A stretch of DNA of 64,000 nucleotides from Ceratorhiza oryzae-sativae. Its lineage: Eukaryota; Basidiomycota; Agaricomycetes; Cantharellales; Ceratobasidiaceae. Made by a program: the position numbers and the translations under genes. Shown piece by piece: positions 5,595 to 54,335 of the stretch. Below the pieces are notes generated by a model. That model was given only the letters and a program-made list of their open reading frames with translations. It was not told the DNA's origin and ran no database searches. Location of the stretch: the NCBI GenBank assembly GCA_030998015.1, contig JARWMV010000061.1, positions 1 through 64,000 on the forward strand, written 5' to 3'. Every line of letters begins with the position of its first letter. Position 1 is the first letter of the stretch.

Positions 5595-6600
5595 AGGTAT
5601 CAATCCAACTGAATGGATAAATAGATTATATGGTATACCCATAGCTAAGGAGTGATATGAATTTGTACCAAGGAACCGTTATCATCCTGAGACTCAGTAT
5701 GAATATCGAAATGCAATTATATGCAAAGAATTAGCAAATAACGGCAGCATGTTAGCGCATACAAGACGTCCCGGGTGGTGCTTCACTCCTGGTGTCATCC
5801 AATGCGGAGATCCATTAGTCAGATTTAGCATAGTCACTCGCTCCGCAGCCTCAGCTTGTGTCGTTCAGTATAGTCTCACCGTAAAGCCTGGACTCCACAA
5901 GACTCCAAATACATAATATATATATAAACTACCTACCTTTCGGGATGGACAAATGCCCGACCATCGCAAAAAGGCGCACATTAGGCAGCGTTGATCTAAC
6001 ATGGGTGGTTGAAATGACCTTGGTACCTGAAGATCGTTAACCTGGTTGGTTGGATCAGAAAACGTCTCACATGACTCAAAGAAGGGTAGCGATCGGCGCT
6101 CATTTTGTGGAATAGGTGACCTAACACTTCCCTGCTGCGGCTCTTGCTACGACCCGTAGGAGGGCTCGTACTAAAACCGACAGACGTATTAAGGGGGATG
6201 CGAAGGTATTTCGACCTGCGGAGCAGGCACGAAACCCTTGGCTATATGTATTCAACTCTAGCATACAATCAAAGCATGATACATAAGCGAGACCATACAA
6301 AGTGGGAAATAGCAAAAGAAAGAAACACAATGCAAAGCCTTGAAACTACCTGATACAGAACCAGACCATATGCATGTGACTATTTGTCCAGGGTAAGGCC
6401 ATTATAGTTGTCTCATGACAGCTCTGTCATCTGTGCTACGACCCGCCAGGGAGGCCGTACGGTCACACAAGAGGTGATAGAGGGGGATGCAAAGGTATTT
6501 GGACCTACAGAGTAGGATCAAACCCCTTTGGTATATATTCATGTCCTGTACATCAAAAATACATAGTAATCCAATACATTGGTTTGTAACTAACTAAATA
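5595..6600. other. Intergenic with a diverged repeat pair
   Basis: No gene recognised. The 3' flank of the TTC27 homologue grades into repeat-derived DNA. Two related blocks (about 6145-6250 and 6430-6540) share a TACGACCC start, GGGGGATGC-AAGGTATTT, GACCT-C-GAG-AGG and a TATAT-TATTC end. Confidence 0.4.
6145..6540. repeat. Two diverged direct repeats of about 105 bp
   Basis: Unit 1 is about 6145-6250 and unit 2 about 6430-6540. Both run in the same order through 'ctacgacccg', 'gggggatgc', 'aaggtattt', 'gacct', 'gagtagg or gagcagg', 'aaaccc' and 'atatattc'. Similarity is partial. They could be termini of a degraded element, but no coding sequence lies between them. Confidence 0.45.
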
Positions 6601-6924
6601 GGAGACAAATGAAGAAAGTGGCATATATGCGACACTAAATTAGGCCACAGAGCCCTTGCTTAATGACCACAAGTTAGGGGTAAGGCTGGGCCTTGTGGCT
6701 CACAACAATCTGCTCCTCCCGGTTGATTTAAGCTACTGGCAGCTGCCTGACAAATTTTCTCCCTTGCAAAAATTGACTTGGGTGTTTCAAAACTGGCCCA
6801 TCAGCGATTGTTATCAATGCCAACCCTCAAAGATTTTGGTATGTTTGTCATGTGCATGATGAAACAGCATGAGAACCTCACCTGAGACCCCCTATTCAGC
6901 AGCATTTAGTTTTCCACTGAGACC

Positions 6925-7320
6925 ATGGCTTCTTTGTTACATAGCTGGAACACTGGCAATTTTGTCTTTTTGATTGCAATCTCACCAAACAGTGAGCTTC
7001 TCAGAGTGGGTTGTGGCAACATGGTTATGCTATGGGATGTTCACACTTTGTTAATGGCTCTTAGCCCTCTGGAGGGACACACTGAAGATATTGGAGCCAT
7101 AGCATTCTCACCAAATAGACAGGTAATTGCTTCAGGCTCAGTTGATTCCACCATTCACCTCTGGGATTCAAAAAGCAGCAAGCAATTAATTGTGGTTGTT
7201 GGTGGTCATATTGGTCAGGTTTATTGCTTAGCTTTCTCCTGTGACAGCCATTCAATTGCCTCAGGAGCTTCAGATGAAACTGTTAAATATATGTGTTTGT
7301 ATTGGTTGTGTAGGATGTAA
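6925..7320 (+). pseudogene. WD40-repeat fragment
   Basis: One open frame of 131 codons holds about two and a half WD40 repeats: AIAFSPNRQVIASGSVDSTI followed by HLWD, preceded by MLWD and followed by GQVYCLAFSCDSHSIASGAS. The GH...WD repeat geometry is typical of WD40 propellers in fungal NLR-like (NACHT-WD40) proteins, but no NACHT or other partner domain lies nearby. The surrounding DNA (about 6.6-8.8 kb) is nearly free of CpG and rich in TG/CA. The frame ends in non-WD sequence (KYMCLYWLCRM). I read it as a captured or decayed fragment rather than a working gene. Confidence 0.65.
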
Positions 7321-8560
7321 TTAATAGCAAGGACTACTGTGTAGTTGGTGGCTGTGAGTAACAAGTATATGTAACAAGTATATGTAACAAGTAGCTGTTG
7401 TGAGCCTAATTAAAGGTACAACAGGTGCAAGTTCTGTTCCTGGTTCCACTATTGTGATTGCAGATGGTTTCCTTATATGAGATGTCTACTGGTGTATGTC
7501 TGTTGTATAGTCCTATGAGTTGTACAGTGCAGGAGTATCTCTGAAGTGCTTGCCTCCCTTACATATTGGTCTTGTGGATCTTGCATGCTATGGCCAGGCT
7601 ACCTGGTCTATGTTGGGACTTACTGGGTGTCACAACCTCTGAAAGCAGTTGTTGGACTTGCTTTACAAGTGGCTAATGCCTCTGATGGGTCTGGACTATG
7701 TCTGGATTATTGCTGATGTGTGGCTCATCTGGGCTTGATGCCTTGTGTGTGTCTACCATCTTGTGGCTTGACACCATATGCACTTATGTGCTTGTGGCTG
7801 ATGGACACCCATCACTGAATAAGCAACTGTGGACAGCAGCTAAGTCAGATGCTTGGTGTTGGGGCTTGCAACATGGTCTTGACTCAAGACCCTTCTAGCT
7901 GTTACTTAAGCTAATAAGTCAGCTAGGGACTGTTCTTCACACTGGATGCTTTAGAGGGGAATTGACAAGGTAGAGCAAGCTGGGGTAGACTGGCTTGCTC
8001 TCCTTGCTTTTATACTATTCTAACCAAGGGAGTGACTAAGCATACATGCAGGATGAGTAAGAAAGAATGGCAGTGATCAGTCAGCCAGTTACTAATAATA
8101 GTATGTCCATCAGTCAGCCAGTACTAATAATAGTAGCATGAGTAAGGTGAATGGCAGTGATCAGTAAGCAAGTGACTAATAATAGGACAAGGATCAGTAA
8201 GCAAGTGGAGGTGCTTACTCATGAAGTGGAGGTGGTCAAGCCACAAGACAAAAGTGGAAAACAAAGGAAGAGGAAAATGATGGTTAGCCACAAGACCTTT
8301 GATCATGGCTCATGACACTGGGCCTAGTGATGCGGACTGACAAACTTGCACATGTCAGTTGCTATGGGAGTATGTGTGGAGTAGCTAACTGCATGGGCTA
8401 ATGATGGAGCTGAGCTCAACATAGTCAGAGCAGTGCTCAATGATGTCTCTGGCTTGCTTAGGCAAAGCATATAAGAGAAAGAGGGAAAGAGAGGGAAGGT
8501 GATATTCAACAGCCTAGGAGGCCCTCTTTATATACATTTTGGAGACAACAAATACTGGGT
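7321..8560. other. CpG-depleted repeat-derived DNA
   Basis: No gene seen. The block near 7960-8020 ('ttgacaaggtagagcaagct...cttgctt') resembles 38116-38165, and short repeats of 'gatcagtaagcaagtg' type at 8080-8210 resemble 53840-53870. This is decayed LTR or other mobile sequence. Confidence 0.5.
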
Positions 8561-8839: not shown

Positions 8840-9345
8840 TTATGACCCGTCAAACGGACATAACAAAACAACCAAATATTTCTACAGATTTATGGCATTT
8901 TTCCTAAGCGGAACAAGCCATAAAACAAGGTCATGTGACCTCGGCGCTTAGCCGGCGCTTACGGTGGTTACCCTGAACTCGCTCCAGCATTTCTCTCCCT
9001 TGTTACTTGGAGCGAGGAGCGAGTTGTCACGTGATCCTGGCGCTTACAGAAGGGTCATGTGACCTCAGCGCTTACGGTTGTTACCCTGAACTCGCTCCAG
9101 CATTTCTCTCCATTGTTACTTGGAGCGAGGAGCGAGTTGTCACGTGATCTCGGCGCTTACGGCAGGATCACGTGACCTCAGCGCCTACCCCTCGGACCTC
9201 GTGCAGCTCTATAAGATTCGGAGCCGCACAAACTTAAGACAAACAATTACCTAACCCATAGTACTGTACAGAACCTACACCTACTGCAGAGTGTGCTTAG
9301 ATAATACGTCCGCAGCCACCGCAGCCACAGGTATATATAAGGAGG
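8840..9345 (+). repeat. LTR-like block with tandem CACGTG/CATGTG-flanked units
   Basis: Units begin at 8929, 9053 and 9165 with GGTCATGTGACC or GGATCACGTGACC, then AGCGCTTACGG, CCCTGAACTCGCTCCAGC and TTGGAGCGAGGAGCGAGTTG. The third unit is partial. A TATATAAGGAGG motif follows at about 9334. The reverse complement of 38330-38740 is the same sequence with its CpGs converted to TpG/CpA, so this is a dispersed family, probably an LTR U3 region. This copy still has its CpGs. Confidence 0.6.
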
Positions 9346-10764: not shown

Positions 10765-11961
10765 GTGGAGAGAGGAGCAGTCTGGCCTCCACCAGGCGAG
10801 ACCCCCCTAGGAAGCTCTCTGTTGGAGAAGCAAATCCAAGAAGGGGCAGAGAGATTGAGACAGGGAGAGCGACGAGAGAGACAGTTAATGATTGACCCAG
10901 AGGTGGTCTTGGGTCAGAGAAGCTTACAGAACGTTACTGAACAAGACCTACTTGAACAGGCGCGGAAGGCAGTCAAGAGGATTCAAGAGTCGGATCTGCT
11001 GAGAGGAAAACCCAAGGCTGTCAAGTTCAACTCAGTGGTGAGACAGGCAAACGGAGGACTACTCTACAAGTTGAACTCAGTAGAAGCCAGGAGATGGCTG
11101 GTGCGCCCAGACGTCTGTAACAGGTTCACTGATGGCTTCGGTTGCACAGTGCAAATCAGAGAGCGCAAGTTTCCCGTCCTAGTACAACACGTCCCGATCA
11201 GCCTCGATGTCGCCAAGAAAGCGACAGTCGACAGCCTTGAGGAGACCAACAAACTACCGAAGGGCTCAATACTCAGCTTAAGGTGGATTAGGGACCCCTC
11301 AAGACATGAACCGGAACAGTGACATGCACACTTGATTATTCACTGCTCGTCGAAAGAGTCTGCAAACAGCTGGATAGAGAATCGGATGACACTGGAAGGA
11401 AAAGACTGCTCTTCGGTAAAGTTACTATCTACCCTGTTAAGATGTTATAACTGCCAATTGCCAGGACACCAGGCAAGAGTGTGCACAGCCCCTCAGACTT
11501 GTGGCACTTGCGGAGGTGGTCATCGGACTGAGAACTGTACGAACAGACACGACACCTATTGTGTGACCTGCAAGACCAAGGGACACCCAACCTGGTCAAC
11601 TTCCTGCCCGGGTTATGCTACCAGGTGTGCCAACCTATCTGATCGAGTCCCAGATAACCGCTACCGATTCTATGTTACTAGTGAACCATGGACTTGGGAA
11701 TTCCTGGGCTCTGAGCAATTGGAACAACGTTTTCGTCCCCCGCGCACCCGCAGGGAACCTCCAGCACCTGCCACACCTTTGGGTCCCAGCGCGACTGAAC
11801 CAGGCACCCAGGCAGAACACCCTTGGCCAGACAACCTAGCGCAGCCTACACCCGGAGGAACAGTCATCCCACCTTGGCAGGCGACGATAACTGAGTACAC
11901 CAACACCCCAACCACCACCACCCAACCCTCGCTAGTACCTCCTGCCTCTGATAATGCCTAG
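10765..11961 (+). pseudogene. LINE ORF1 (gag-like RNA-binding protein), one nonsense codon
   Basis: A single frame continues on both sides of a TGA at 11320-11322 (…RHEPEQ, stop, HAHLIIH…). A CGA to TGA transition would explain it. The first half is a helical domain without a clear name. The second half has three CCHC-type knuckles: CYNCQLPGHQARVC, CGTCGGGHRTENC and CVTCKTKGHPTWSTSC. A Pro/Thr-rich tail follows. ORF1 proteins coat LINE RNA. Its stop overlaps the ORF2 start as ATGCCTAG at 11954-11961, as expected for termination-reinitiation. Confidence 0.8.
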
Positions 11962-14900
11962 ACGACCCAACGAGCCCAACACCAGAGAACTCAGAAAACT
12001 TAGAATCTGGCAGCAAAACGCCAACACGTCCCCACTAGCGCATCACGACTTAATGAGAGCGGCCACCCCGGACAACTGGGACATTCTAGCCATCCAGGAA
12101 CCGGCACTTAACGACAGAAATGCTATTGGAATCACGTCAAAGTGGATTTCGGTTTACCCCACAAACCACCTTCGAGACGGCCAACCCCGATCCAGATCCT
12201 TGCTACTAGTTAACCGGAAGTTGTCGACAAATTGCTGGAGAACGGTAGCACTCGGTTCGGCAGATGTCACGGCTATCGAACTGGAAACCACACGAGGGAA
12301 GACCCAAATCTACAATGTCTACAACGACGGCGCCCACGATAACACGATCGAACTACTAGAGTCCCACTTAGCCAACACGCCAAGGAACATCAACGTGATA
12401 CTAATGGGCGACTTCAATAGGCACCACCCGTACTGGGACGAACCTAGGAACGAGCACTTGTTCACAGACGCAAGGCTGGAGGCAGCTGAACGGCTACTAG
12501 ACTTAGTTTCGAATAACAACCTAGTGATGACACTACCCAGTGGGATGCCAACTCATGAATTGTTCACTACTAAAAACCTGTCTAGGCTAGACAACGTGTT
12601 CGTTTCATCAAGGCTCAAGGACGAAGTAGACCTTTGCACAGCCCAGCGCGCTCCTAGAATCTCAGCCACCAACCACTTTGCGATACACACAGTGATCAAT
12701 CTCGCCTGCGAACAAGCAAAGACCAACCTGAAACGAAATTACCCAAAGACAAACTGGGATGAGTTTAACACTTTGCTAAAAGCCCGAACTGAAGCACTGC
12801 CTACAGGGATAATCACAACAGTCAGACGGTTCAACAAGCGACTAGAAGACTTGATGAAGGCCATACAGTCGACAATTGAAGAGACTGTACCCACCACAAG
12901 ACAAAGCCCGCACACAAAGAGATGGTGGACACCGGAACTCAAGCAGTTATGGAAGGAAAAGAACAAGCTGAGTCGACTAATCTGCCGGTATGACTATGAG
13001 AACAATCACCCCATTCATGAAGAATATAGGCAAACAGAAAACGACTTCAGAAACGCACTGAAGGAGTCCCAACGGTCCTGCTGGAATAACTTTATCGACA
13101 CAGCGGATGCGGACAAACTCTGGGATGCACACTGCTACTTAACTGGTACCAAAGGAGATGGAGGCGCGACTAGGATCCCCACCCTGATTGTAGACGAGCC
13201 AGGCGGAGGGAAGCGCACTTGCGAGACAAACGGGGAGAAGAAGGGAGCATTTTATGAAACTTTCTTCCCTACGCCAGCGGAATGCAATATCCCGGAAGAC
13301 GAGGACTACGTTGACGATGTAGAACAGTTCCGAAGGGTGACAGGTGCACAGCTGCATCGCATTATAGCTAAACTTGAACCGCACAAAGCACCTGGCCCGG
13401 ATGGAATCCCAAACTGCGTCTTTATCAACTGTGCAGATATCCTAGTCCCGCTGCTGATTCCGCTGTACCAAGCAACGTTCACCCTCAAACTACTACCCAC
13501 AAGCCTGGCGCGAATCAATCACAGTGGTTCTGCGTAAACCCAGCAAACCAGACTACTCTAAGCCAAAAGCTTACCGACCTATCGCACTCTTGAACGTCAT
13601 CTCGAAGCTTCTCTCTGCATGCGTAGCAGAGGAACTCAACAGAATAGCAGAAAAATGGAACCTTTTACCGGAACACCACTTCGGGGGACGACAAGGCCGT
13701 ACGACTTCAGACTCTATGCACACTTTGACCTCGTTCATCAAGAATGCCTGGCGAAATGGAGACGTAGTAGCTGGACTATTTCTAGACGTATCTGGCGCCT
13801 TCCCAAACGCGAGTCCTCCGATGCTAGCCCACAACTTACGGAAAAGCGGAATTCCAGAAGACTATGTCACCTGGATGGAACGAAAACTAGCAGGCCGGAC
13901 TACAGTACTAAAGTTCGATGATTACGAGTCGGACAAGCTCGAGATCAAGCATGGCATTGACCAAGGTTGTCCGCTGTCGTGTATCTTTTACATCTTCTAC
14001 AACAGCGACTTGGTTAGGGTGGCGAGAGCACCAACGGGGCGGAGCAAGAGGGAGGAGCTGGCGGTGGGCTACATCGACGATGTTGCGCTGCTCACAAGGG
14101 CAGCCACGATGGAGGAGGCGGGAGAGAAGCTGAAGGATATGATGGAAAGAGAGGGCGGAGCTCTAAAGTGGGCAGAGTTGCATACGTCAGAGTTCGCTCT
14201 GGAGAAGACTGCGCTAGTTGGGTTTTCGAAGAGCAAGGAGAGGAAATCGGGGCCGCTGCACATAGGAGGGGTGTTGATCAAGCCAGTCAAGTCACACCGC
14301 TTCCTGGGAGTGATCTTCGACGAGGGGCTGAGATGGGGAGATCAGAGGGCGGAGGTGCTAAAGACCGGGTCCACCTGGGTCAACCTCTTAAGGAGGGTGT
14401 CCAGGACGCGACACGGGCTGAAGCCGGAGGCCGCACGGCGGTTGCACCAAGCAGTGTTTTTGCCAAAAGTGACATACGCGGCTGACATTTGGTGGGAGCA
14501 TGTTCGCAGGAACGAATCGGATACAAGGGACCTTGGCGCGTCGGGATTCACAAAGAAGCTGCAATCAATACAGCGCATCTCGGCACTCAACATCACGGGT
14601 GCATTGAGGACTTCACCAACAGACGCACTTGACGCACACGCCGGAATCCTGCCGATAAAGCTTGAGCTGCAACGGGCCTGCCACCGAGCCGCGATACGAT
14701 TAGCCTCAGTCCCAAAAAGTCACCCACTACGGCAACTCGTGGATAAAGAAGGGAAGCACCTACCAGCTGAGCATCGCTCCCCACTACAGATGCTATTCTC
14801 GTCCACTGAAGTAATAGTAGCAGAATACACACCGAAAGCTCAGAGCAACGACCTCCAGAAAAAGCTCATGAAACTACAGGTCACAATTGCGGAGACGCGA

Positions 14901-15836
14901 GAAGAAGCTATAGACTATGAGAAGACAACTACAGCGGACGTCAAAGTCTTTACCGATGGGTCGATGAAGGACGGTGGTGTGGGAGCGGCAGCGGTTCTGG
15001 TTAGGGAAGGGGCGGAGGATCGCACACTCAAGGTGTATCTGGGATCGGACGAGGAGCACGAGGTGTACGAGGCTGAGATAGTGGGATTGCAGCTAGGCTT
15101 GCGCCTGCTGGAGACAGAGAGATGGCCGATGGACAATGCGGTGATATTTATGGACAATCAGGCGGTGCTGCGCACGCTGTTGGCTGGGAAAACGAAACAG
15201 CTATCGAATATGTTTGCTGACTTAAACGCTATATTACACAGGGTATTTAGGAAACACGGCCAAGTACGAGTCGAGGCAAGGTGGATACCGGGGCACGAGG
15301 GGGTGGATGGAAACGAGAAGGCGGACGAGGCGGCCAGGGAGGCAGGCCAGGGAGGCAGAAGCGCACGGGAAGCACTCCCCGAGAACCTGAGAGAACGGGT
15401 ACCAACAAATCCCACGGCGGCCAAACGAGTATTTCGGGAAATCCTACTCCGGAGGTGGAAACAGGAGGTCGACGACACGAGGAAAGAAAAGCTACAAAAC
15501 CTGGACCCGAGCTACCCGTCGCTGAAGTTCTTCGAGGCGGCCAAATCACTCAGCCGACGCGAATATGCAGTTTTAGTGCAGCTCCGGCTCGAGCACTTCC
15601 CGGTCGCAGTGTACCTAGAACGTTTCAAGAAGGTCGACTCTCCGATGTGCCCGGACTGCGGTATGAGTAAACAGACAGTGTTTCACCTATTGATGACTTG
15701 CCCAGCGCATAGAGAGGCACGGAAGCTGCGAACGAGAGAATTAGGAGACGCATCAAGATCATTCAGAGCACTTTTGCAACCGGGGAAAGCAACAAGACAC
15801 CTTATCCAATATCTAGAGCGAGTAGGAGCCATATAG
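11954..15836 (+). pseudogene. LINE ORF2: endonuclease, reverse transcriptase, RNase H; one frameshift
   Basis: The endonuclease/exonuclease/phosphatase domain comes first (IWQQNAN, AIQEP, IYNVYNDG, LMGDFNRHHPYWD, SRLDNVFVS, TNHFAI). RT follows with HKAPGPDGIPN, YRPIALLNV, SGAFPNA, and YIDDVALL as the catalytic box. RNase H shows VFTDGSM, YEAEIVGLQLGL, FMDNQAV and HEGVDGNEKADEAA. A C-terminal CPDCG...HLLMTCPAHR motif matches the Cys-rich tail of these elements. An extra C at about 13504-13505 shifts the frame between LPTS and WRESITVVLRKP; otherwise the protein is about 1290 residues, normal for the clade. Without that base it would be a complete polyprotein. Confidence 0.85.
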
Positions 15837-23843: not shown

Positions 23844-24497
23844 GAAGGGTCGCTCAATGATGATTTATGCTCTCTATACCTCAGGTTTTTGTTGGTGCCG
23901 ATTGCGGATCATATATATGCACTCCCCAGCTTGACATTTTGTAGTTTATAGTTCATTATTAGTTTTTGGTTCCATTTTGATTCGTGCTTGGGGTGTTCGT
24001 TCTGCGTGTGGCTGGTGTACTATAGACTCCGTGACGCATACAATTGATGATTGTGGAACACATGCCCCACCGTTCTCCAAGCCTAGGCTGACCAATTAGC
24101 AACCTCGCAGCAAACCGTTTGCGACCGATTGCAAGGACCGTGCAACGTAATTCGTGAGTTATCTCGACGTGATTTGGAATTCATCGGCTCCGTACCAACC
24201 CTTGCACTGTTTTGCCCATGTGATATAATTCACGGTTCTGGTGTGGTCGGACCGAGCCGATGCGAATTGGTTCCTGGTCCCCTCTTATTTGTTTCCTACT
24301 CGATCACCCTGTACAAGGCGTTTTGGTGGTTTATGCAGCATACGATCGATCCCTCCGATTAAATGCTATCGATGGTAAATATCTCGGCTCCAAGGTGGAC
24401 CTTTCAAATCCGGCGGGTGGCAACGTGTTGTCACGTGCATCACATTCGGCTGATTGAAACTACGACGACACGATATCACAACCACATCGTAAACACA
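23844..24497. other. Intergenic; 3' flank of coiled-coil gene and 5' flank of kinase gene
   Basis: T-rich 3' UTR-like text to about 24050, then unremarkable sequence to the proposed ATG at 24498. Open frames at 24129-24457 have no motif. An earlier exon of the kinase gene could lie here. Confidence 0.35.
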
Positions 24498-27400
24498 ATG
24501 GATTGGAACAAGTTTTATTTTGGACGATTTGTGGTGATTTTGGCTCATCCTCATGCTTCTGGCTGTATGGTTGACTGATTGATATTGTATAGGAGGTAAG
24601 AAGGCTGCCCAGACAGCTGCCCCACTACTCGCAATGCTTTTCTCCATAGGGGCATGAATCGGTAAAAGGAAATGTATGTATTCTATCCGCTTAACGGCTA
24701 TTTATGCGCTTTGATAGACTTGTAACATTACTCCAGCGCAATATTCGACCTATCCTTGGAGAATGGGTGCGTCGCATGTCTCCCACTGCACATGTGGCTA
24801 TCTTTTCAAATTAACATCACATGACTTTAGCTTGTGAGCTGCCCTAGCTCACTCGACTCGCGACCTGTTTGACATATTTATGGTTGTTTTCGATGGCTTT
24901 CAGGTCGTGAGTACTTGGAGATCCTTGATCCTCATAGCAAATACCATCTGTGAATTTAGGATGTACGTGGGAGCCATTCGTCATATTTATCTTGACTAAC
25001 GTTACGTACGAAAGAGGGTACGTGTTCTAGCCGGCTTGATCATGCCGTTCCAACAGTCCATCGGTGACATCTGTAGCGTGTGAGTGTCATTTGTTTCCTT
25101 GGCCGGCGACGTGTTCAAATACTTCTTTGTATAGCCGGTAGGTATTGTGAATGGTTCTGGTCTGTTTGTCTACTCAAACGGCAGGGTGTACGGCTTGTTA
25201 TTCTATAGAAAGTAAGTGGCCCTTGGGTGCGCTGAATCTTATCGAAATCCCATGGCTTACTTTGTTTTAGGGCGTAAGTCGACCCACTGTTGGACAGGCC
25301 CTTAATCTGACGCTGCTGACCCCTTGATGGATACGATAGACAGTATGTGTTGTCCCATAGTTCTTCTTACATTTCGCTCAAGGGACATGTCCCGCTTTTT
25401 TACAGATGGTAAGTACACTCGCTGTTGGAGGCATACAAGCATCTCATGAAGGATTTCTGCCATCATTAGCTCGTGAGTATCTGGTTCCTTGTGAGCTCTT
25501 GAAACACCCTGCTTATATGCAATGTCATTCCAACAGTGGGTAAGTAATTTTTGTTGCCTGTCTATTCATGACTAAACGAAAACACTGTGTACAGGATGTG
25601 AGTCGCTTTGGTCTTTTCTAACAATTAACTCGCTCAATCGATGGAGGTTCCAGGATGTGAGTGGTTCGATGCTCGCTTACCGAGTTGGATTTAAGTCTTG
25701 TCATATAGAAAGTAAGGGAATTTATGGGCGACCCGAATGAGCACTGATAAAAAGCGCTCTTCGTGTTCTCAGCGTGTAAGCGGCCAAGTTGCCCTGTTTT
25801 CTCATCTGACGAATCGTTCTAGGATGTAAGCCGGTATTCTATCGACTCCTCGAGCTCTTACGTTCAATTTGTTGCTTCAACCTAGCTTGTATGTGAATTG
25901 CCCTCATTTTTAGATTTATTTGTCGATGACAGGCGCTAGTTTGTGAGCTACCTTTGGATTAACGGACCAGTAGTGCTGAAGTAGGATTAATCATATCACA
26001 CATGCGGTAGTTCGTAAGTCAGCTTCGAACTTCCTGCTGTGCTATTGATTTACCTGGCAATTCGCCGATAGTTTGTAAGTCTGTTTGGCTTTTAAGTAAG
26101 ATTAAAAATGACAATTGACGTTGTGCCGACTCGCAGAAGGTGATACTATTTGCGCGCAATGATTGATTGTGGGACTGACGGATTCGACCTTACAATCCGA
26201 TGCCCTCATTCAGCAAGTAAGCAGAATTTCTAGAAATTATGTCCAGAGTGACTGGAACTTACCTTTTCATTTCGTAGGATGTATGTTTGGATATAGCCTG
26301 GCCATGCTCAATCGCTTACCATAGCCGATACCATAAAATAATCTATATATAGCTTGTGAGGCCTCCCCGATTCTTCTCGAATTTGGTTGATTGATTTTTT
26401 TCTAGGACGTAAGTTGCCAAACCCCTACAGCGTCTAAGCCACGGCTGAGCTTTATCTTAACTAGTCGGTAAGCCTACTTACCATCGGTGCGTAGGCGGCT
26501 GGCTGAGGATGCCGGCTCCTCACATATATAGTCCGTGAGTAACCCGAAAAAATAGTGGTGCTGATTTGAAGTGCATGATTGTCACGTTAATATATGCAGG
26601 AAGTGAGTACGATTTATTAAATTGATTATATGCGCTATATACACGTACTCGAATAGATGGTACGTCTTATTGCGGTGAGAATGATCCCATACTTTGACTG
26701 TGCAAATAACCCCTAGGAGGTAAGCCTATCATTGCAGCATATACTCGGAAATCCTAATGCTGCGAAATTTTGCAGGTGGGCCAGAGCCAGTACACCATCC
26801 GATCATTAGCCAAACTCTTTTCTAGGATGTAAGTTCCATCGTTCGTTCCTTCTATATTGGGCATATATTCATGGCGCTGTCAGTTTCTTCGCACGCACCC
26901 GGTCTATCGCAAGCCAATCCATATTCCATCGAATCTCGTAAGAACTCGAGTTTTTCCTAGTACTGACTGACTACATTTGCACAGGCTGTTTCCGACATGG
27001 TGGCCTACTTGACTAAGCACGCCGGTATTGCTGACCTCACAGCTGAATTGACGAAGTGGCAGACTCCTGACTACCCAACTGCCACGGGCGGGCAAGGCAA
27101 TATCTATCTTGGGACCAAGCCAGGAGGTAGCTTGTTTGCTATAAAATGCATCACCCAGGCCGATGAGAAATATGCCAAAGTAGCTAGACCAGTGTTTTTG
27201 TTGCAAGTTACTCAACTTCCATTTCTAGCATACTGCTCGGGAATTAAGCACTTGGGCCAAGCTTAAACACCCAAATGTTTTGGAGCTATCCGGACTGGCG
27301 ATGTTTCGCGGTCGGCTAGCAATGGTATCTCCGTGGATGGAAGGTGGCAGCGTCAAGGCTGTTTTGAAGAACAATCCTTCGATGGATCCTTATGCTATGG

Positions 27401-28231
27401 TAAGGGTTACAGTGTATTCCACTTGCGATTTTGATTCATTCTTCGCAGTGCGAACAGCTTGTTGCAGTAATCAGTTATTTGCACCATCGGAATGTGGTAC
27501 GTACAATGATTTTAAATATTAAGCTAGACCGCTCTTACCTTGGGTGATCAGATTCACGGAGATATAAAAGGAGTAAGTGTTGGCCTTGCTTCTAGTGTTC
27601 GATTGAAGACGACTTAGCTATGGCAGGACAATCTGCTCATGGGCCCTGATGGTAACCTCAAGTTGACCGACTTTGGACTCACTGTTATGCACGACAAAAC
27701 TTTGCAATTCAGTGAAACCGATCCGGCTGGCGGCACATTCCGCTGGATGGAACGTGTTGTTTACTCTTTGTTATTTTTGAGACTAACCGGTTATCCATAC
27801 AGGCCCCAGAGTTATATCTCGAAGGAGCTGAGATCTCGAAAGAGGGAGATATGTATGCGGTTGGCATGGTAGGTACCTCTGTTCGGAATTTACTTCTAAT
27901 GATTCTTGTTGTTCAATTTATTGACTCATTGTGCAGACCATGCTCGTAAGAAAGAGTTTAACAGCGGGGCCAATGATGTACTAATCTTTCCTAGGAAATA
28001 ATCACGGGCGACATTCCGTTCCGCGAGATTCGGTCTACCATAGCTGTCATTAAAGCCGTCAGTGAAGAGAAACTGACCCCCAATATTTCGGAACTGGAAA
28101 AGAAGCCCGTCTCCCCTCGGGCATACGTTATGATTGCCGCTATGCATCGTTGCTGGCGAACTGACCCGAAGGAACGAGCGACTGCAGAGGAGATCGGTAA
28201 CCTGGTATGGTCGGACCTACTCTTCCCATGA
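24498..28231 (+). CDS. TKL-type protein kinase with 45-exon model and a chain of single-codon exons
   Basis: The proposed model has 45 exons and 366 residues. It starts with 24498-24533, 24593-24595, 24650-24661 and 24737-24766. Then come 32 three-nt exons, 26884-26937, 26985-27179, 27229-27399, 27449-27496, 27552-27572, 27627-27749, 27803-27868, 27937-27945 and 27995-28231. Every intron is phase 0. The kinase domain shows GGQGNIYLG (from about residue 112), AIK lysine 131, RELSTWAKLKHPNVLELSG, MVSPWMEGGS, catalytic HGDIKG (residues 217-222; HGD for HRD), DNLL, DFG (237-239), APEL, GDMYAVGM and HRCWRTDPKERAT. It would phosphorylate Ser/Thr substrates, targets unknown. The intron after RWM begins GAACGT instead of GT; retention gives early termination before the C-lobe. 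The kinase part is secure; the 5' half rests on splice-site reading, and the start ATG is uncertain. A shorter gene starting at ATG 26997 is the conservative alternative. Confidence 0.75.
24593..26828 (+). other. Array of one-codon exons between short introns
   Basis: Triplet and first base: gag 24593; ctt 24831; gtc 24904; gat 24960; agg 25015; cgt 25077; ccg 25135; aaa 25209; ggc 25271; aca 25340; atg 25406; ctc 25470; tgg 25537; gat 25595; gat 25654; aaa 25709; cgt 25773; gat 25823; ctt 25886; ttt 25940; ttc 26011; ttt 26072; aag 26137; caa 26214; gat 26278; ctt 26353; gac 26406; tcg 26465; tcc 26532; gaa 26600; atg 26657; gag 26717; gat 26826. Each follows an AG, usually YAG, and precedes a GT donor, mostly GTRAGY or GTAYGT. 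Introns are 47-74 nt, and many contain CTRAY-type branch sites 15-30 nt before the AG. Intron sequences are not repeats of one another. The gag-to-gat interval (26720-26825) contains AG|GT at 26774-26777. Exons of 12 nt (24650) and 30 nt (24737) interrupt the run near its start. Confidence 0.8.
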
Positions 28232-28762
28232 ATATCTCGCTGAATTGAATCTAGCTGAAGCATATGGGCAAGTTTTAGCTTGGGGGCATTGGATCATGTA
28301 GAAATATGGTGAATGGGAATGAGATTCAGGATGAACCCGGTTAATATCTGAGTGGAATTCTGTATAGAGGGTGATGATTCGATTATCCTCGGGTTTTTGA
28401 ACTGCTCTACGCCTATGCATGCGCTGTGCGTACGAAGAGCGTTAGCGTCCAGTAACATAAGCTGCTCTGACAGCGCCTGGCGCTTCTCGCGATCAGGCAA
28501 TCAACGACCCTCATCACTCTTCTTTGCTCGTGCGAGACTATCTCAACCAAAGGTGGTATTCAATTGATATATCAAGCAGCGTCGAAATCAACGGCTCATC
28601 TAAAAACGAGAAGACTACGAAGAGCTTGCAGCCCATTCTTGCCAGATTTACCGGCCTTTATCCTCCTCTACCTGAAGACGACCGTGCTACGGCCTCGGGT
28701 CTTTTGCATATTTCCGTATATCTCGCTTTCATATTCTTCAACTTTGATTCAATTTGCCGAGC
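28232..28762. other. Intergenic, no gene seen
   Basis: Between the kinase stop and the DUF4470/MYND start. Open frames here lack motifs. It presumably holds the kinase 3' UTR and the next gene's promoter. Confidence 0.4.
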
Positions 28763-31700
28763 ATGTCGCACCCAATAGTGTGGATGTTCGACACAATGTT
28801 TTATCCCCTCGGGAATACGCCTGCATTGTGTCTTACCCAAGATCTTTCGCCCGAGCAAGACGCAGAGATTCTTCTGCTTGGGTGTGGAGATCCTCGTAAT
28901 CTCTTGTACACCCTATACGTGGACCTTACGACCAAAGGTATGGATCTTCCTCTTGGTCAGAGGGCAAAGTACTCATGAGCGGAATCCAGATAATCGAAAA
29001 ATTGATGCCACATGTTGTGATATGGAACCGGCTGTGCTTGGTATACCACATTTTTAAATAGATCTTCCTTCCTACTTAAATTTCTTCTACTAGCCCGCAA
29101 TGGTCTTCTGTTTGCGTTGATAGAACAAGACGTGGCCGCTTCGTGTTTATGGGACATATTTTTTCATTTCAAAATCAACAAGTCTGTAGCTTCTCAGTTG
29201 ACAGCTACCGCTAGTAAGCTCTCGGAGGCTTCAACGACAATTGAAGATTGGAAGCGGTCTAAATGGAGCTCTTACATGAAGCCGGTCGACCTGCAGACGC
29301 TCTCTGCACTTCGTCGGCACTGGAAATTCTACGCAACCTTTTTTGAATTGCCTCCTAGCAAGATAGACGGATTTCGCCGAGAGCACTCCCAGCTTTCAAA
29401 GCGATTCACGGACACGATGGGGCAGAACGCTGGTATCGGTCGATCTGCTGGGATATTCTGGGCTGATGCCATGACTCCCATGGCCAAATTATTCGAGCAG
29501 TATTGGGACAATGGCACTACATTTATCTCTCCCGATGATATCAAGTCAGCGACAGAGCTCAATCCAACATTCGGATACTCTATGTCGGGCGAGAGGTTTA
29601 AACCACACTACGGAACTTTCCCTCAGGGTTTCCATTTTGCCCCTGCTTTTGCCCCCGTTTTATCGAGCTCAAATAACCCGGCAAACTCCGACGAAGGCGA
29701 TATCATCCCAGTCGCCAAGCAGCAGTTTTCTGATTACTGCCAAGCCTTTCGGAGAGCGCGATCAGCGAACTCGATTACGATTCGCTTCTTCTCGGGTGAA
29801 GCCACAACGTTTTGTCGCGCGTTAGATATCTACTCGAAGACTGGCCAGGCCAAAACGGGAATATTTACCTGCCAGTGGCGTGCCTCAGAGATAGATTTCA
29901 GTGATTGCATGCCCATGCCTCTGGAATTTGACGTAGTCGATACGTCCAATTTGCTCGATCATCTGGGCCCCTTGAACGTACTTATCACCACCCAACCTCT
30001 ACTCAAAAAACGGCCTGCGTCCCAGTCTGTTTTGTACATGGAAGCTCTCCTCCCTTCGGGCAAGGATGCAACTCAATCCCTCTCGGACCGCTTTTGCGCA
30101 GACGTCCCTACAATCGCTATATTATTTGGTCTCGCGCCTCGAGCGTATCTTTCTGCTTTCACTACCCAGTCTAATGTCCACGAGATCATCGTCTCGGCCG
30201 CTTTCAAGCAGATCAGCCAGTACCACGAGCGTGTCGCTTGGGTTAGTCCGGCGTCTGGGAACCCAAATTTCTCTGAGACTGGGCCAGTCTCGTTGAATGC
30301 GGTTGACCTTTCAAACTTATTGTTAGGTATATACGTCAAAATGTTCAAGGATGAGCAAATCACCCCGGAGTTGAGGGCCAACCCTACCGCGGCAGCCGCG
30401 CGAGAAATGTCTCAGGCACATTACCATCGCGAGTCCTTTGCGCTCCTACTTCGCCTTGTTAGAAACCGAGTTCAGATGTCTCAGGAAGATTGGGAGGAGA
30501 TGGTCAACAGGCTTCTCAGCTTGATCACCAGCAATAAGGAAAGTATGCTAGAGATGGACCATTATCAGGACCTCTGCCTCCAACTTCACTTGTACGGGCT
30601 GTTCACGGTCTCTTCGCTTCATCCCAACTGGCAGCTGGTGCCCCGAGTCGGAGTTGCCAATCTCGACATTTTCGAAGGGTGGGATGATATTCCGCCCGTA
30701 GTCTGCGTAGTGGCCACTATTCCTAGGAAAAGCCTTGGGGCACTTATGAATGAAAGCGCTGGAAGCCCGCGATTCCAAATGAACATGATGGGCGGCAGCT
30801 CTTATCATAACAATTACTCCTCCTTGCACGGTATTTGGGGTACCTGCGTTCGGAACTCTAACGACTCAAGCGTGGTTTCAATCGAAGAGGATCCAGAAGG
30901 TATTCATGGAACATCCGATTTGGTTGTTTCTTTCTGGGCTTCCCCCTATCTGCTGGTCACCGCGAACACCACCGTTTGTTTTGCGCTTCGACCCAACCCT
31001 TTCACTATATCTCAGTTTATGCGTAAACTTGGGGTGAACATGGTGATATTCAAAGCGAGTCTCGAGGACAGGAAATATGTCACGATTATGCGAAATCGGC
31101 CGATGGGCGGCTCTGCTGTTCAGCGAGTTTCTCAACTCGGATTAGGACTTTCTCTGCCGCAGCCCGACCCGAAGAACGTGTCGCTCCAAATAATTACAGT
31201 CAAGGAGGAAAGAACGAAGTTTACATACAACGTCGCATCAATAATAGCAAAACTATCTATTGTCTCTCCTGGCGAGCAGATTGAGCTCTTAAACGGGGCA
31301 TCGGTATCTGCGAAACAGATATCACCTTGTGCTATGGAGGTTTCAGTTGGCGATTTTCGGCATGATGTAGCCTTTCCGTATCCGATAAACGGAGCCGGCC
31401 ATCGCTTGCGTGTTGCGCGAAAATCGCATTATATCGAGGTGAACTCTCCATGAAGCTCCTTTCAAGTTACATGGCACCTAATCTATTGCGTAGGTGATTT
31501 CAAATGTGGCAGCACCAATTGGGCCTGGAGGGTATTCCCTAAACACATTCCCTATCCTTGGATATGGTTCATATACACCTTGGAACATCCACCACATCAA
31601 CCTAGATCGAATGCCGCTCCTCGATTTCAAATACAAAAAGAAACTTGAATGGCTGAAGACCCACTGCATGTTCCAGCTCTCCGATCGGGAGCGCGCCTTG

Positions 31701-32492
31701 AGCGAAGCAGCCAAGAACAAGCCGGAGAACGTGATGGTTCAAGTCAAGGAAAGCATATACACAATGTTTACGCATTGCTCTGGACTGGAAGGGGGCCCTA
31801 CTAAAGCCTTTTGCTTCTGCGAACCTTCGGGGAACCTCGGGGTGTACACTGTCGCTTTGGTCGCTGGTACGCGCCTAGATCTGGCATCCTCAACCGTTGT
31901 GCTCGACGCCGCTATCGTGCCCCTATCCCTCGCTAAAATGCCTACCCTTTTACCTGGGATTCAATCCCTCCACTCGAGGGGCAAAGAAGTGGAACAGCTG
32001 ATAACTCATGGTGCCGAGGTTGTAGCATGGAAACATCTTTTGCCGGCACTAGTCGAACGGTGCCGCACATGGTCGCATACTCCTAATTGTGAATACTTGG
32101 CCGAAAACGACATTCCACTCACTATGGAACCATCCCTTAGCCCGATTTGTACATGTGGGCAAGGGATCGGCTTCAACTCTACAGAATGGAACGTTTCGTG
32201 GTGGCAAGGACTTCTTCCGCATGCAACGCGAGTCGCGATTTCACCCATATTCGCAGTATCGTACCTCGAACGTGTCGGAGGAGATTTATTAGATTTGACT
32301 TCGTCTCCCAGCTCTAGGGGCAGCGGGGGCTCCGCAACACGAAAATCAAGCACAGCTTGTTGGTCCTGTGGTGGGCCAGGGCGACCGAACCTGTCAGTTT
32401 GCGGCAAGTGCAAGAAGGCACGATATTGCTCAGCTGATTGTCAGCGGAAAGATTGGAAAGATGGGCATAAGACAAAGTGTCGATCCTTTTGA
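28763..32492 (+). CDS. DUF4470-like protein with C-terminal MYND zinc finger
   Basis: Four exons, 28763-28937, 28990-29040, 29094-31438 and 31494-32492, summing to 3570 nt (1189 residues). Introns are 52, 53 and 55 nt. The N-terminus MSHPIVWMFDTMFYPLGNTP, the motif LLLGCGDPRNLLYTLY and, across the first junctions, DATCCDMEPAVLARNG fit the DUF4470 domain of fungal and animal MYND proteins. The middle 900 residues are conserved-looking but unnamed. The C-terminus is a MYND finger: CWSCGG...CGKCKKARYCSADCQ, then KDGHKTKC, with all Cys/His ligands present. MYND fingers mediate protein-protein contacts. Start chosen at the first ATG before the DUF motif (28763). No damage seen; the gene directly precedes duplicated segment A. 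Confidence 0.85.
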
Positions 32493-37837: not shown

Positions 37838-38905
37838 AATTTGTCCAACATCAGGAAAAACACCCCTGAATTATTATTGTTTATAACACAACATTGCTGT
37901 GTATTAACCAGTTGCAAGAATTGCTGTCCCTCCCTTTTATCACCTAACATAATCTGTGGGGGGTGATGATTATAGGCAATTGCAGTGGATAAACCAGGAT
38001 TATATGTTGAGGCCCCTCTGTCTCCTTGTCTCTGTTGATTCCTTAAGTAGTGGCTATGTTGTCAGTTGTAATTTGCAGTATATATTGATAGTATTTATGT
38101 AGTATGTATGGGCAATCCCTGTGGTTGACAAGATAAAGCAAGCTGGGGCCTACAGGCTTGCTTTCAATGAGTTATATACCCTTCAAGGTATGAGTCAGAC
38201 TGTTCCAAAGTCCACAGCAGGTTATGGGTCATGTGTGGTGTAAACAAGTATTAAGTAAGTTACTCTTAGGGTTGTTGCAGCTCCAAATCTTATAGAGCTG
38301 TGTGAGGTCCAAGGGTCCATGATTTAAGCACTGAGCTCATGTGATAACTTGCTCTTTGCTCCAAGTTACAATGGAGAGAATTGCAGGAGCAAGTTAGGTA
38401 ACCACTGAAAGCACAAAGGTCATGTGATGTGTTAAGCACCAGGGTCATGTGATAACTTGCTCCTTGCTCCAAGTTACAATGGAGAGAATTGCAGGAGCAA
38501 GTTAGATAACCACAATAAGCACTGAGGTCATGTGACAGTTATAAGTGCCCAGATTATGTGACAACTCACTCCTCACTCCAAGTTACAATGGAGAGAATTG
38601 CAGGAGTGAGTAAGATAACCACTGTAAGTGCCAGGATAAGTGCCAAGGTCACATGATCTTGTTTATAGCTTGTTCAACTTAAGAGAAAATGCTATAAACT
38701 ATAGGGTAATTCTCTTCTTACATTATGGCTGTCTGTGCAGGTCATAAGATTATAGCCATAAATCAATTTGAAATTCCCCCAACATATCTTCAAAGTGCCT
38801 CCCAGGAGACATGCAGGTTTATAAAAAATGCATTTCACAAATTTACACAAACTTGCTATAATCTGTGAAATCTTGATTTATAAAAAACCCAGTTTTTCCT
38901 GACAA
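37838..38905. repeat. Further mobile DNA inside the GPI18 relic, with a CpG-stripped LTR block
   Basis: 38330-38740 is the reverse complement of the family at 8840-9345: GCTCCTTGCTCCAAGTTACA and GGAGAGAATTGCAGGAGC repeat three times where the other copy has GCTCCTCGCTCCAAGTAACA. All CpGs are gone. The segment near 38116-38170 resembles 7960-8020. No gene. Confidence 0.6.
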
Positions 38906-41789: not shown

Positions 41790-43858
41790 ATACCAGTGTT
41801 GATTATAGTTCAAGGGTTTCGTGAAGGCGTTGGCAAGGTTTTCCTTCAATGGAATGAATGAAACCATGATTGTCTGCTTGTGGATTTCATCTCAAACAAA
41901 GTTGTATGGCGTGTCAATATGCTTGGTGTGCATCTTGTTTGTAGGATTATGCGCAGAGTCAATAGCAGCTTGATTATCACATAGAATAGGCAAGGTGACG
42001 TGAGACGAATATTTGATGCCAATATCATCTAAGAATTGTTGTATAGCAAGTAGCTCCTTTGCAGTATGATGACAAGCAACAGTTTCAGCCTCCATAGTTG
42101 AAAAGCGACAGAGGATTGACATTTAGATAGCCAAGCAACAGCAGCACCACAGAGAATAATAACACAGCCAGAAATAGACTTTCAAAGGTGTGGTTGTGCA
42201 AAGTTGGAGTCTGAGTAAGCAACTTTGTAGAAAGGTTTATAGCTGTTGTAGGTGATGCCTAGTTTAGCAGTAGTAGCAAGGTAGCGATGTACATGTTTCA
42301 TGACTTGGATGTGCGCATCTCCAAAGGCACCAGCATGGCAAGCTAAAACACCAACAGGGAACAAGCTGTTGGGACGAATGCAGCGAGTAACCCAGAACAA
42401 GCAGCTGAGTTGAGTAATATACAGATAATCAATCTGGTCAGTTGAAGGTTCAAGAATAGGTGTAGTATTTGACATAGGCGTTTCAGCAGGAGTGGCCTTG
42501 TCAAGATTGGTGAGTTTGACAATGGATTTGATGTACAATTCCATAGTAAGTGACAGAGTGCATTGGGCATGATTGCAAGTGACAGCAATGCCTAGGAATA
42601 AACAAGTTTTGCCTAGATCTTTACAGTCGAATAGGTTAAGGATCTTGTGCTTGATAGATTCAATATGACCAGCTGTACAGCAGATAACAAAGTTGTTGAC
42701 GTAGCAGATAATGATGGAGAAAACACCATTCTTGGTGCAAGGGAAGATAGAGACATCCTTTGCGCATGGACAATAGCCAATAGCAATGATTTTGCCATTG
42801 TGAAATAGTTCCCAGAGATAGCTGGCTTGATGCAAGCAGTAGAGTGCTTGAGTGACAAACATAATAGTTGGGCTGCCTTTCCCATATCCCTCTGGGAATT
42901 CAACATATAGTGGAATATCCATCAGCACATGAGTATATGTGCTAGTGACATCGACCATATGGCAGTCCAAGTTGGCATGAGCAACAAGAGCAAGAACAAT
43001 ACAAATATATGCAAGATTGGGTGTATTTGAAGCAGTTTCATTATAAGTGAGACCAGCAATCTGCCAATTTCCGTGAATGACTAGACAGGCCTTGAGTCAG
43101 ACTTCTTCTCCATTGGTGTCACGTTTGATTTTCAGTACTGGGCCAGAAGTGAGTATTTGGGCATTGTGAGGTACATTATGGTGATCGATTTCTGTGTAGA
43201 CTTTATTCTTCTTTAACTGATTGAATTCAGCATTGATGTCAGCAAGCCAGTCCTTTTGGCAACTAGAGTTGAGAGCATTGGACCATTTAGGTGAGTCAGA
43301 ATCGACTAGATCAGGCTGATAGAGCAAAGAAAAGTGTTTTGCAGCCCAGGCATTGTAGCAAGGTAGTTTGTCGTTGCAGCTAGTATTGAGCACAAGAAAG
43401 CAGGCCTGTATATGACTAGGTAGCTGCAAGCGATAGGGAGAATTGCCAAAGGATGACAAGTCGACTAGATAGACTTCATCAGGGTCACATATAAACAAGC
43501 TAGTACGATTGTGCAAGTCATTGAGTGCTCAGAGCCATAGTATGCATTTGAGTTTGGACTTTTTGTCAAGGCGCATGTGTTTGATTGGTTTAGCGCCAGT
43601 GCAAGCCTTAGTATGCGTAATGTGATGATTGTCGCCAGGGACTAGTTGATCAGATGATTTGGATGGTGCAGAAGGACCAGGAGCAGGTTGATGGGAATGT
43701 TCAGGATGACTAGGGCTAGTGTTTACCAATGGACTAGGTGTTAAAGGTGTAGCAGCAGGTTGCGACAGCATAGAAGACTCCCCCTGAGCCTGAGTGGACA
43801 GGTCTTTGTGCTGAGTGGATGTATGCTTGTATTTCAGAGTGTCAGGACCAGTTCCCAT
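41790..43858 (-). pseudogene. Copia reverse transcriptase and RNase H remnants
   Basis: Frames 43858-43529, 43516-43097, 42970-42182, 42122-41892 and an extension to 41790 together hold RT and RNase H. Landmarks: WSNALNSSCQKDWLADINAE, DVTSTYTHVLMDIPLYVEFP, catalytic box ICYVNNFVICC, KDLGKTCLFLGI and CDNQAAIDSAHNPTNK. The YVDD box reads YVNN at 42692-42703; two CpG to CpA changes in GTC GAC GAC explain both lost aspartates. A TGA after YNFV interrupts the RNase H tail, again explicable as CGA to TGA. It cannot be functional. Confidence 0.8.
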
Positions 43859-43990
43859 CTCCCCCTCACTTGGTGCGAAGACCTGAACCCATTTGTCTTC
43901 GGAGAGACTATCTGGTTTGCCAGAAATGGCTATAGGGGTTGGAGCATCAAAAGATGTTTGATTGGGGAGGTGGCAGGGAAAATAAACATT

Positions 43991-45373
43991 TCAAGACATG
44001 TGAATCACTCGATCAGGCCAAGCAAGGTAGTGCCAAGCACCTCCAGAGTTTCTATCAATGCCAGTAAAGATGGCATGACGCGTTTTGGCCTTGATTTTCA
44101 AACGGGGTTTTGATTGTATAAGAACCTGGCAAGTAGTACCAAAAAGTTGAAAATAGGACATGTTGATTGGTTTGTTGAACATTTCAACTTGGGGAATATG
44201 CCATTCGCCACAGATCTTGTGAGGCATGTTATTGGCAATCATATTGGTGTAAGACACAGCTTCCTGCCATAGAAAGAGCTTGCCTCGAGTATTTGAGTGA
44301 CCATGTATCATAGACCTAGAGCGTTTGGCAAGAGTACAATGTGCATGTTCAGCAGCACTGTTCTGCTGTGATGAGTAGGGAGCAGTTGTAGTGATTTTAG
44401 TGCCAGTCCTGTCACAGAATTTGCAAAGTTGATTATTGATCATTTCTTTGCCGTTATCAAAATGAATGTGCTTGATTTCCAGACCATTCTGAGTGCAGAT
44501 GAAGTTGGCAAGAGCAATATATTGGTTGACAGCCTTGTTCTTGTGATGCATAAAATGGACAAAAGTGAATTGAGTGGCAGCATCAACAAAGACAATATAA
44601 TAATGGTTGCCTTGAAGAGATTCGACAGAGGCAGGCCCCCAGATGTCAGAGTAGATCAGATCAGCAATGTTGCAAGGGGTTTCGATGGAGATATTTCCAA
44701 AGGGGTGAACATGTGCCTTGCCCTGTATGCAGCCAAGGCAGTTGAAATCCAGACTCAGAGAAACAGAATCAGTCTTAGTAATCTCTAGACTGCAAGCAAG
44801 GTTGCTATTTTTGAGTCTAAGAATATTCCAGGGGTCTGTATGCACAAGAATGATGTGCCAGTCACAAAGAGTACAAGTTAAATAAGCATGCTGGCCAGGG
44901 TCTGTAGTAGCCATAAGATACCAGGAGTTCCCAGTGCGTTGCTTGCCTATCTTCTTGGCTAGAGCAAATAGAGTTGAAGAACCAGAGCCAGAGTCATTGA
45001 AGAAAGCCATAGTATCCCTAGTAACATGCATAGAGTGCCTAGGATACTCATCAGTCCAAGCAGATAGCAATAGAAGGTTGACTGGGGAGTTTTCAACTAG
45101 AGCAACATTTGTAAACAAGACACGACCATCAGGGCAACCGTAGACAGGTCGATTTTCAATGATGCGAGGGACTCGGGCATGCATGAAAAGAGTGATTTCA
45201 CCAAAACCAGAAATAGTAGCCATACCGCCAACACCTTGGATAGACACAGACATTGGAATACAATTTGTTAAGTGCTCTTGGCGGTTAGTCACATGGCAAG
45301 AAGCGCCAGAGTCAATGATCCAAGAGTCGTCTAAGCCAATGCCAAATTGAGTAAGATTCTGAAGACTGAACAA
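43991..45373 (-). pseudogene. Copia protease and integrase
   Basis: Starts directly after the gag-pol TGA. Protease motif WIIDSGASCHVTN, then a GAG-pre-integrase segment, then the integrase core with DLIYSDIWGPAS, FDNGKEMINNQL and QQNSAAEHAHCTL, matching D, D and E positions. The frame ends at 43991. Catalytic residues of this part appear present. Confidence 0.8.
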
Positions 45374-45379
45374 GAATTG

Positions 45380-47007: not shown

Positions 47008-47020
47008 GGGGCTCATAACC
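47008..47020 (-). other. Copia primer binding site, internal initiator-tRNA type
   Basis: On the minus strand GGTTATGAGCCCC begins immediately after the LTR end. It resembles the primer site of Drosophila copia, which pairs with an internal (anticodon-side) fragment of initiator Met tRNA. Identification from memory of that motif. Confidence 0.6.
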
Positions 47021-47312
47021 TATTGAAGCTAACCAAGCAGGATACGCTTCGATTGTACTTAGCACAGTGATTAAAGCGATTGAACTCAGTGAATGAAGCA
47101 CACGAGTAAATGGGGGTAAATGTCGCTGATGATTTGAAGCGACAAGTTCATTCAGTTATATACCAGACAACGGAGAATACAAAGGAGAATACACGGGTGT
47201 ATCTAACTAATGTATCTACGTATGGAGTTAACACAGGAATATCGGACAACAGACGGAGTGAGATAGGAACAATATCGATATAATATCTACGTGAGCACGG
47301 GTTCGTTCAACA
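47021..47312 (-). repeat. Copia 5' LTR
   Basis: 292 bp, bounded on the minus strand by TGTTGAACG and TTCAATA (imperfect inverted ends). It directly precedes the primer site and abuts segment B at 47313. Confidence 0.65.
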
Positions 47313-53960: not shown

Positions 53961-54335
53961 TGTCAACAACGACAAGTCAGGTGGTGAGAAAAATAGTAAG
54001 AAAAGAAAAGAACTTGTATTCGATGAGAGGTCAAGTTCTTGAGGAGCCCTCTGCAAACTTGACCTGGTTTATATACATAGTACAAGCCACATCATAACAA
54101 ACAAGTCTGTACAGTGAGTCACAACTGATAAGAGATAGAAGCAGTAGAAGCAACTGCGGAACTGCAGAATTTCACATCAGAGTTGAAATACATCTTGGTT
54201 GTCAGTCTGGAACATCCTCTGAATCACATGACACAGATATACCATAAAAGGCAAGTATGTTTGAAGCTGGTCTCATAAAATGTAGTAAATCAAGAAAATA
54301 TTACAGAGTGGATATATGCATGTCAGTTTGTGACA
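53961..54335 (-). repeat. Gypsy 3' LTR
   Basis: 375 bp, matching 61835-62207. The pol stop codon (54323-54325) lies 11 bp inside it. Confidence 0.9.

Follow-up and report, generated by a model that had tools for sequence, protein, structure and literature searches.

Codon-sized microexons are reportedly known from the nank family of Tuber melanosporum, where they were described by Iotti et al. in 2012. The micro-exon genes of Schistosoma resemble the locus described here in having many small, frame-preserving exons, and differ from it in that their exons are longer than one codon; we know of no array of identical introns in these genes. In the case of the NACHT-ankyrin genes of T. melanosporum, passages of three papers describe multiple, up to tens of, alternatively spliced microexons of 3 bp (PMC3689799, PMC4986451, PMC10197012). 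The preliminary description of the present locus had stated that no chain of this kind was known, which was therefore wrong. In Cryptococcus, the available passages on the gene CNN00420 report that the expansion of a DNA repeat gave rise to identical introns, with a repeat copy number that varies between strains (Sharpton et al. 2008, PMC2395259). In fungal NLRs of the HNWD type of Podospora, near-identical repeats are shuffled within and between family members and few codons vary, according to passages of PMC4986451. Judged from listings, no paper in the open-licence literature was found on near-identical introns combined with hypervariable single codons.

The DNA analysed here, referred to in the following as the window, comprises positions 1-64,000 of the forward strand of contig JARWMV010000061.1 of Ceratorhiza oryzae-sativae, whose genome assembly holds 48.8 Mb in 253 contigs. 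On the plus strand, 32 triplets are placed between an AG and a GT, the first at 24831-24833 and the last at 26826-26828, in agreement with the preliminary description (Table 1). Counting from the 30-nt exon through the last triplet, there are likewise 32 introns. The regular unit of 50-74 nt that had been reported holds in essence for 31 of them, with lengths of 47-74 nt, and fails for one intron of 106 nt (26720-26825). Donors are mostly GTRAGY (21 of 32) and acceptors mostly TAG (22) or CAG (9), with a single AAG, again as described before. A frequent branch site had also been claimed; this could not be upheld, as the motif YTRAY is present in 18 of the 32 chain introns and, on average, in 15.7 after shuffling, i.e. 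without enrichment.

Regarding the spacing, the 2-kb chain stretch contains 32 sites at which a donor follows an AG after exactly three bases, and 0-4 sites for each of the spacings of 0-2 and 4-15 bases. The density of three-base sites in the rest of the window is 0.64 per 2 kb, and 2000 dinucleotide shuffles of the chain stretch gave a mean of 0.75 sites, a maximum of 5 and a longest chain of 2. The chain is therefore not a product of chance. Read from the site list, 30 of the 32 matches are exons of the gene model and 2 are not; as for the model exons outside the matches, one has a donor (GTGATA) that does not fit the pattern, and the final site is cut by the edge of the slice. Genome-wide, AG-NNN-GTRAG was counted 5590 + 5528 times, lower than in the reversed control (7385 + 7396), thus chains are too uncommon to show in such a count.

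The introns of the window chain are unrelated in sequence, as had been noted. No mutual similarity beyond that of shuffles was detected among them, and Tandem Repeats Finder reported no array in the chain. Recent duplication was considered for the window chain as well; residual intron similarity was sought and did not rise above shuffle level, so this candidate was rejected. An AG directly abutting a GT, with no exon between, lies between the last two triplets both in the window gene and in its paralogue L037. By reading, this site would divide the 106-nt intron into 56 and 50 nt.

Table 1. Features of the predicted kinase gene in the window (positions in the window) and the basis of each assignment
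Feature	Position	Strand	Basis
ATG exon, 33 nt, MDWNKFYFGRF; weak donor GTGGTG, end uncertain	24498..24530	+	Likeness by eye to the start exon of L037
Single-codon exon GAG (E)	24593..24595	+	GAA at the matching place in L037
24-nt exon GHESVKGN	24650..24673	+	L037 24-nt exon EHDEIKGR
30-nt exon RNIRPILGEW	24737..24766	+	L037 30-nt exon SEIRAEIARW
Chain of 32 putative single-codon exons (LVDRRPKGTMLWDDKRDLFFFKQDLDSSEMED), with intervening introns	24831..26828	+	Spacing, shuffle and codon-usage tests
AG/GT site, zero exon between, candidate for recursive splicing within the 106-nt intron	26775..26776	+	L037 counterpart
54-nt exon FLRTHPVYRKPIHIPSNL, the F-x-x-HP exon	26884..26937	+	L037 54-nt exon; homologous starts in database proteins
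Kinase domain, eight exons, each a multiple of 3	26985..28231	+	Gene model, profile matches

All 45 exons of the gene model are multiples of three, and the model introns are therefore in phase 0. Exon lengths and frame, together with the paralogue exons described below, support the earlier proposal that the chain would be joined in frame on both sides within a kinase gene. One upstream exon had been given as 12 nt; because L037 has a matching 24-nt exon, the 24-nt reading is preferred. No stop codon occurs among the 32 triplets, a sign that had rightly been called weak, since random intron triplets would be free of stops with P = 0.205. In their codon usage, the triplets are more coding-like than stop-free random intron triplets (P = 0.012).

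The predicted protein has 369 residues and matches PF00069 with 147.3 bits (cut-off 31.7; residues 115-363) and PF07714 with 123.1 bits (cut-off 23.1; residues 118-359). Its kinase domain thus exceeds the curated Pfam cut-offs for protein kinases. The families matched are of the kinase type only, and the predicted protein gave no match to NACHT or ankyrin. The exon end placed at 27749/27750 is uncertain, as it has no GT; if the in-frame GT at 27756 were used instead, the protein would be two residues longer. Among the best 120 of 290 database matches, the top relatives are Ceratobasidium proteins, the closest sharing 69% identity across 82% of the query sequence.

Several other features lie in the window. 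A second kinase exon, which shares 43% identity with the query, is found at 1465-1596 on the plus strand. Two separate tandem repeats, with units of 113 nt (8955-9188) and 108 nt (38325-38628), have motifs such as CTTGGAGC/CACGTGA in common, as seen by eye. There are also long retroelement-like open frames at 11954-15836 (+), 42182-47101 (-) and 54323-60072 (-), which we take to be LINE-like, Copia-like and Ty3-like, respectively. An open frame at 31494-32492 (+) ends in a cysteine-rich stretch, presumably a MYND zinc finger.

Three more near-identical copies of the kinase gene are present on contigs C234, C39 and C15, with 99.4-99.9% identity over 8-10 kb. An alignment of the four copies over 24400-28300 has 29 variable columns, 25 of which are intronic. 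There is one synonymous difference, at 24673 in the 24-nt exon, and the C15 copy has a 3-nt insertion (three columns) at an edge of the first single-codon exon; this insertion either adds a codon or shifts the acceptor. The kinase exons show no differences among the four copies, and 0 of the 96 nt of the triplets are changed; as only about one change would be expected by our estimate, this says little. A selection test on the triplets of these copies was dropped for having too few differences to work with. Between the window and the C234 copy, gaps (6) outnumber mismatches (2).

A set of 20 kinase loci was examined. Nine carry a chain of 3 or more single-codon units, namely the three window copies, L034-L037 of a second subfamily, and L043 and L045 of a third; in the other 11 (L038-L042, L044, L046-L050) no chain of 3 or more was found. 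In both diverged subfamilies of this genome the chain is located before the F-x-x-HP exon, as in the window gene. In the case of L037, the order is a single-codon E exon, the 24-nt exon EHDEIKGR, the 30-nt exon SEIRAEIARW, the chain, the 54-nt exon FFHEHPGRKKPIHINADT and the kinase. For exon pairs picked by eye, the combined peptides of the E, 24-nt and 30-nt exons are identical at 7 of 19 positions between the window gene and L037, and those of the 54-nt exon at 8 of 18, a level that none of 20000 shuffles reached in either case; the final five chain codons, SEMED in the window and AEIEA in L037, agree at 2 of 5 (628 of 20000 shuffles as good). Judging by these alignments, the flanking-exon peptides of the two genes are homologous. 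The kinase exons of L037 are 36-69% identical to the window kinase.

At the DNA level, the non-array chains have nothing alignable in common with the window chain. Comparing the non-array chains of L037 and L045 with the window chain, the best matches were 11-20 nt long with E values of 0.017 or worse, the kinase serving as positive control (E 1e-7). The spacing is again found in these non-array chains, with 12 AG-N3-donor sites in 1110 nt of L037 (shuffle maximum 3) and 10 in 1050 nt of L045 (shuffle maximum 2). Upstream of the arrays described below there is little excess, with 5 sites in L037 (shuffle maximum 4) and 3 in L045 (shuffle maximum 5). In the 3' non-array chain of L034-L037, 12 triplets show one synonymous difference against 1.6 expected, which is not significant, and two less certain small exons vary among these loci (ATG/GTG and GAACCT/AAACCT). 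In L045, the stretch 5150-8160 apparently encodes two consecutive kinase domains, each preceded by a linker that begins in a similar way.

Whether the triplets reach the protein can be approached through database homologues. Among the best 120 of 290 matches, 19 proteins have the F-x-x-HP motif ahead of the kinase; 13 of these start 0-21 residues before the motif and 6 have 30-102 residues before it. The former number fits the earlier expectation that gene finders would start such a gene near 26.9 kb. It would also fit a gene whose mRNA lacks the triplets, either by starting near 26.9 kb or by removing a single 2.1-kb intron, with the chain as a relic. Also in line with a relic are the proteins P0012, P0015 and P0023 (contigs of 1054-1167 nt), in which intron-like sequence leads into the F-x-x-HP exon and the kinase part is uninterrupted. 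These three have the appearance of transcripts in which chain introns were retained. Relics, however, would not keep an AG-N3-GT spacing over 2 kb, between unrelated introns and in three subfamilies; the subfamilies also have conserved exons ahead of the chain, and the triplets are codon-like. We therefore regard a relic as quite improbable.

In our judgement, the residues upstream of the motif look coding in one of the 19 proteins, P0028. It has an uninterrupted frame of 343 residues in a contig of 1338 nt, and is for this reason probably derived from a transcript; the residues LNEIAK directly precede its F-x-x-HP exon. In an AlphaFold model of low confidence (block pLDDT 63), LNEIAK and the F-x-x-HP exon form one helix. 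A database search with the N-terminus of P0028 returned the protein itself alone. Taking together the conservation of frame and exons, the codon usage and P0028, we infer that the triplets are probably spliced and translated.

In contrast to the diverged introns of the window, part of the chain in L034-L037 is a tandem array with a period of 68 nt, consisting of a 65-nt intron and a triplet. With a threshold of at most 12 differences from the intron consensus, which excludes more diverged edge units, 66 units were counted (15, 9, 16 and 26 across L034-L037). The intron is identical to the consensus in 49 of these, and the triplets belong to 12 types: GAT 16, TGG 12, GCT 12, ATT 8, CGG 6, CTG 4, with six others less frequent. 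Diversity per site amounts to 0.656 for the triplets and 0.012 for the introns. L043 and L045 hold a second type of array with a 107-nt unit and a 104-nt intron; for its intact units (31 of 58), the corresponding values are 0.640 and 0.0139. In both types, the diversity per site of codons is roughly 50-fold that of introns.

These arrays bear on the origin of the chain, which the preliminary description had attributed either to intron gain at codon borders or to the stepwise removal of one large intron. Neither is favoured by the sister genes, whose arrays of intron plus codon look like tandem duplication: units with a whole intron stand head to tail in both the 68-nt and the 107-nt arrays, as expected for tandem intron gain. 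In the window chain itself, with its diverged introns, such units are not seen. The duplication of a whole-intron unit, making new identical introns, is also the likeness to Cryptococcus CNN00420, as far as the passages on that gene go; its unit of about 107 nt includes exon ends, is present in few copies and has no hypervariable single codon.

One could also imagine an invasion: an exon already in place would have received copies of a single intron at its codon borders, either through reverse splicing or in the manner of an introner-like element, and this would yield near-identical introns between different triplets. In genome searches, however, each intron was confined to the contigs of its own arrays (C47, C12 and C251 for the 68-nt unit, C250 and C66 for the 107-nt unit, both lower bounds), and near-identical introns spread over many genes, as introners would produce, were not found within these bounds. 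Most residues in the 68-nt arrays are always encoded by one codon (GAT, GCT, TGG, ATT, CTG), arginine excepted, as in copied units. Additionally, an old exon would have left a common triplet order among the copies. The four 68-nt loci are 92.6-98.0% identical, with alignments extending from the flanks into the arrays; still, the similarity in triplet order between array copies was no greater than after permutation, and no specific exchange is indicated. Within the L034 array, a block of four units, TGG ATT ATT TGG, is repeated (permutation P 0.0055). Altogether, an invasion seems very improbable to us, and far less likely than tandem duplication.

Another explanation for the variable codons is a mutation hot spot without selection: mutation or imprecise repair at the splice junctions would generate the codons as a side effect. 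Codon diversity is indeed near saturation and the introns barely differ. In the 107-nt arrays, length changes affect 27 of 58 units, many at the junction; in L043 and L045, changes of 1-2 nt cluster at the unit junctions, i.e. at the variable place. These are either assembly errors at variable repeat sites or real indels at the junction, and if real, they would break the frame. They often lie at short single-base runs, and may be assembly errors since the window and C234 copies, too, differ more by gaps than by mismatches. Against a hot spot, the length of intron plus triplet is constant in the 66 units of the 68-nt arrays, apart from one foreign insertion in L037. We thus consider a hot spot doubtful, though less so than a relic. 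A unit-by-unit comparison of the two 107-nt arrays, in which some units differ in place, was given no weight because the length changes make the assembly doubtful.

Two irregular units were observed in the 68-nt loci. The insertion in L037 (3841-4013) is about 170 nt long, has inverted-repeat ends like a small DNA transposon and splits one array intron. In L034 (5133-5203), an AG is shifted by three bases and abuts the next GT, leaving an array unit without a codon.

From these comparisons, we think it likely that the window holds an old, diverged codon array encoding a kinase N-terminus, whose units would multiply in tandem and exchange, giving a variable N-terminal peptide. In this mechanism, a unit of one short intron and one codon would duplicate in tandem by unequal exchange or slippage. 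In young arrays, the near-identical introns would provide homology for exchange between units and between copies. Single codons could then be shuffled and replaced like cassettes and new codons retained, with selection on the protein probably favouring new residues. Because unit lengths are divisible by three and the introns are in phase 0, the spliceosome might join or skip units in frame, and the resulting kinase would have an N-terminal peptide that varies. With time, the introns of an array would lose their resemblance to one another, whereas the splice sites and the spacing of 3 nt would persist, leading to a chain like the one in the window.

A bolder form of this mechanism, in which introns act as homology arms through which single codons are shuffled, gained and lost by exchange, and frame-neutral splicing yields many N-terminal peptides per allele, is advanced tentatively, at somewhat less than even confidence. 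If true, a signalling kinase would be diversified residue by residue, at the levels of both DNA and RNA. The fungal group is known for its anastomosis (hyphal fusion) groups, and such diversity could possibly be used to discriminate self from non-self. The HNWD-type NLRs are similar in shuffling near-identical repeats with variation at few codons, and differ in that, according to the passages on them, their repeat is coding, whereas in the kinase arrays all but one codon per unit is intronic.

There is a close likeness to the nank NLRs of Tuber, a fungal gene family with tens of consecutive single-codon exons, as predicted here for the window gene; according to the passages on them, these exons are proposed to diversify a receptor. 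However, the Tuber genes are ascomycete NLRs with NACHT and ankyrin, whereas the window gene belongs to a basidiomycete and is a kinase with a match to neither. Alternative splicing is reported in the passages on Tuber, whereas the microexons of the window are predicted from the gene structure in the sequence. Near-identical introns with variable codons go unmentioned in those passages. The window gene, having no NACHT or ankyrin match, is not a member of the Tuber family, but on paper it would work alike.

Single-codon exon chains would then extend from truffle NLRs to basidiomycete kinases. Since gene finders would miss N-termini of this kind, related genes are probably mis-annotated. Apparent young and old stages of the chain are found side by side in one genome, and the origin of extreme intron density can therefore be put directly to the test. 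Provided that the arrays are expressed, they would constitute a natural system of exon shuffling with single amino acids as its units.
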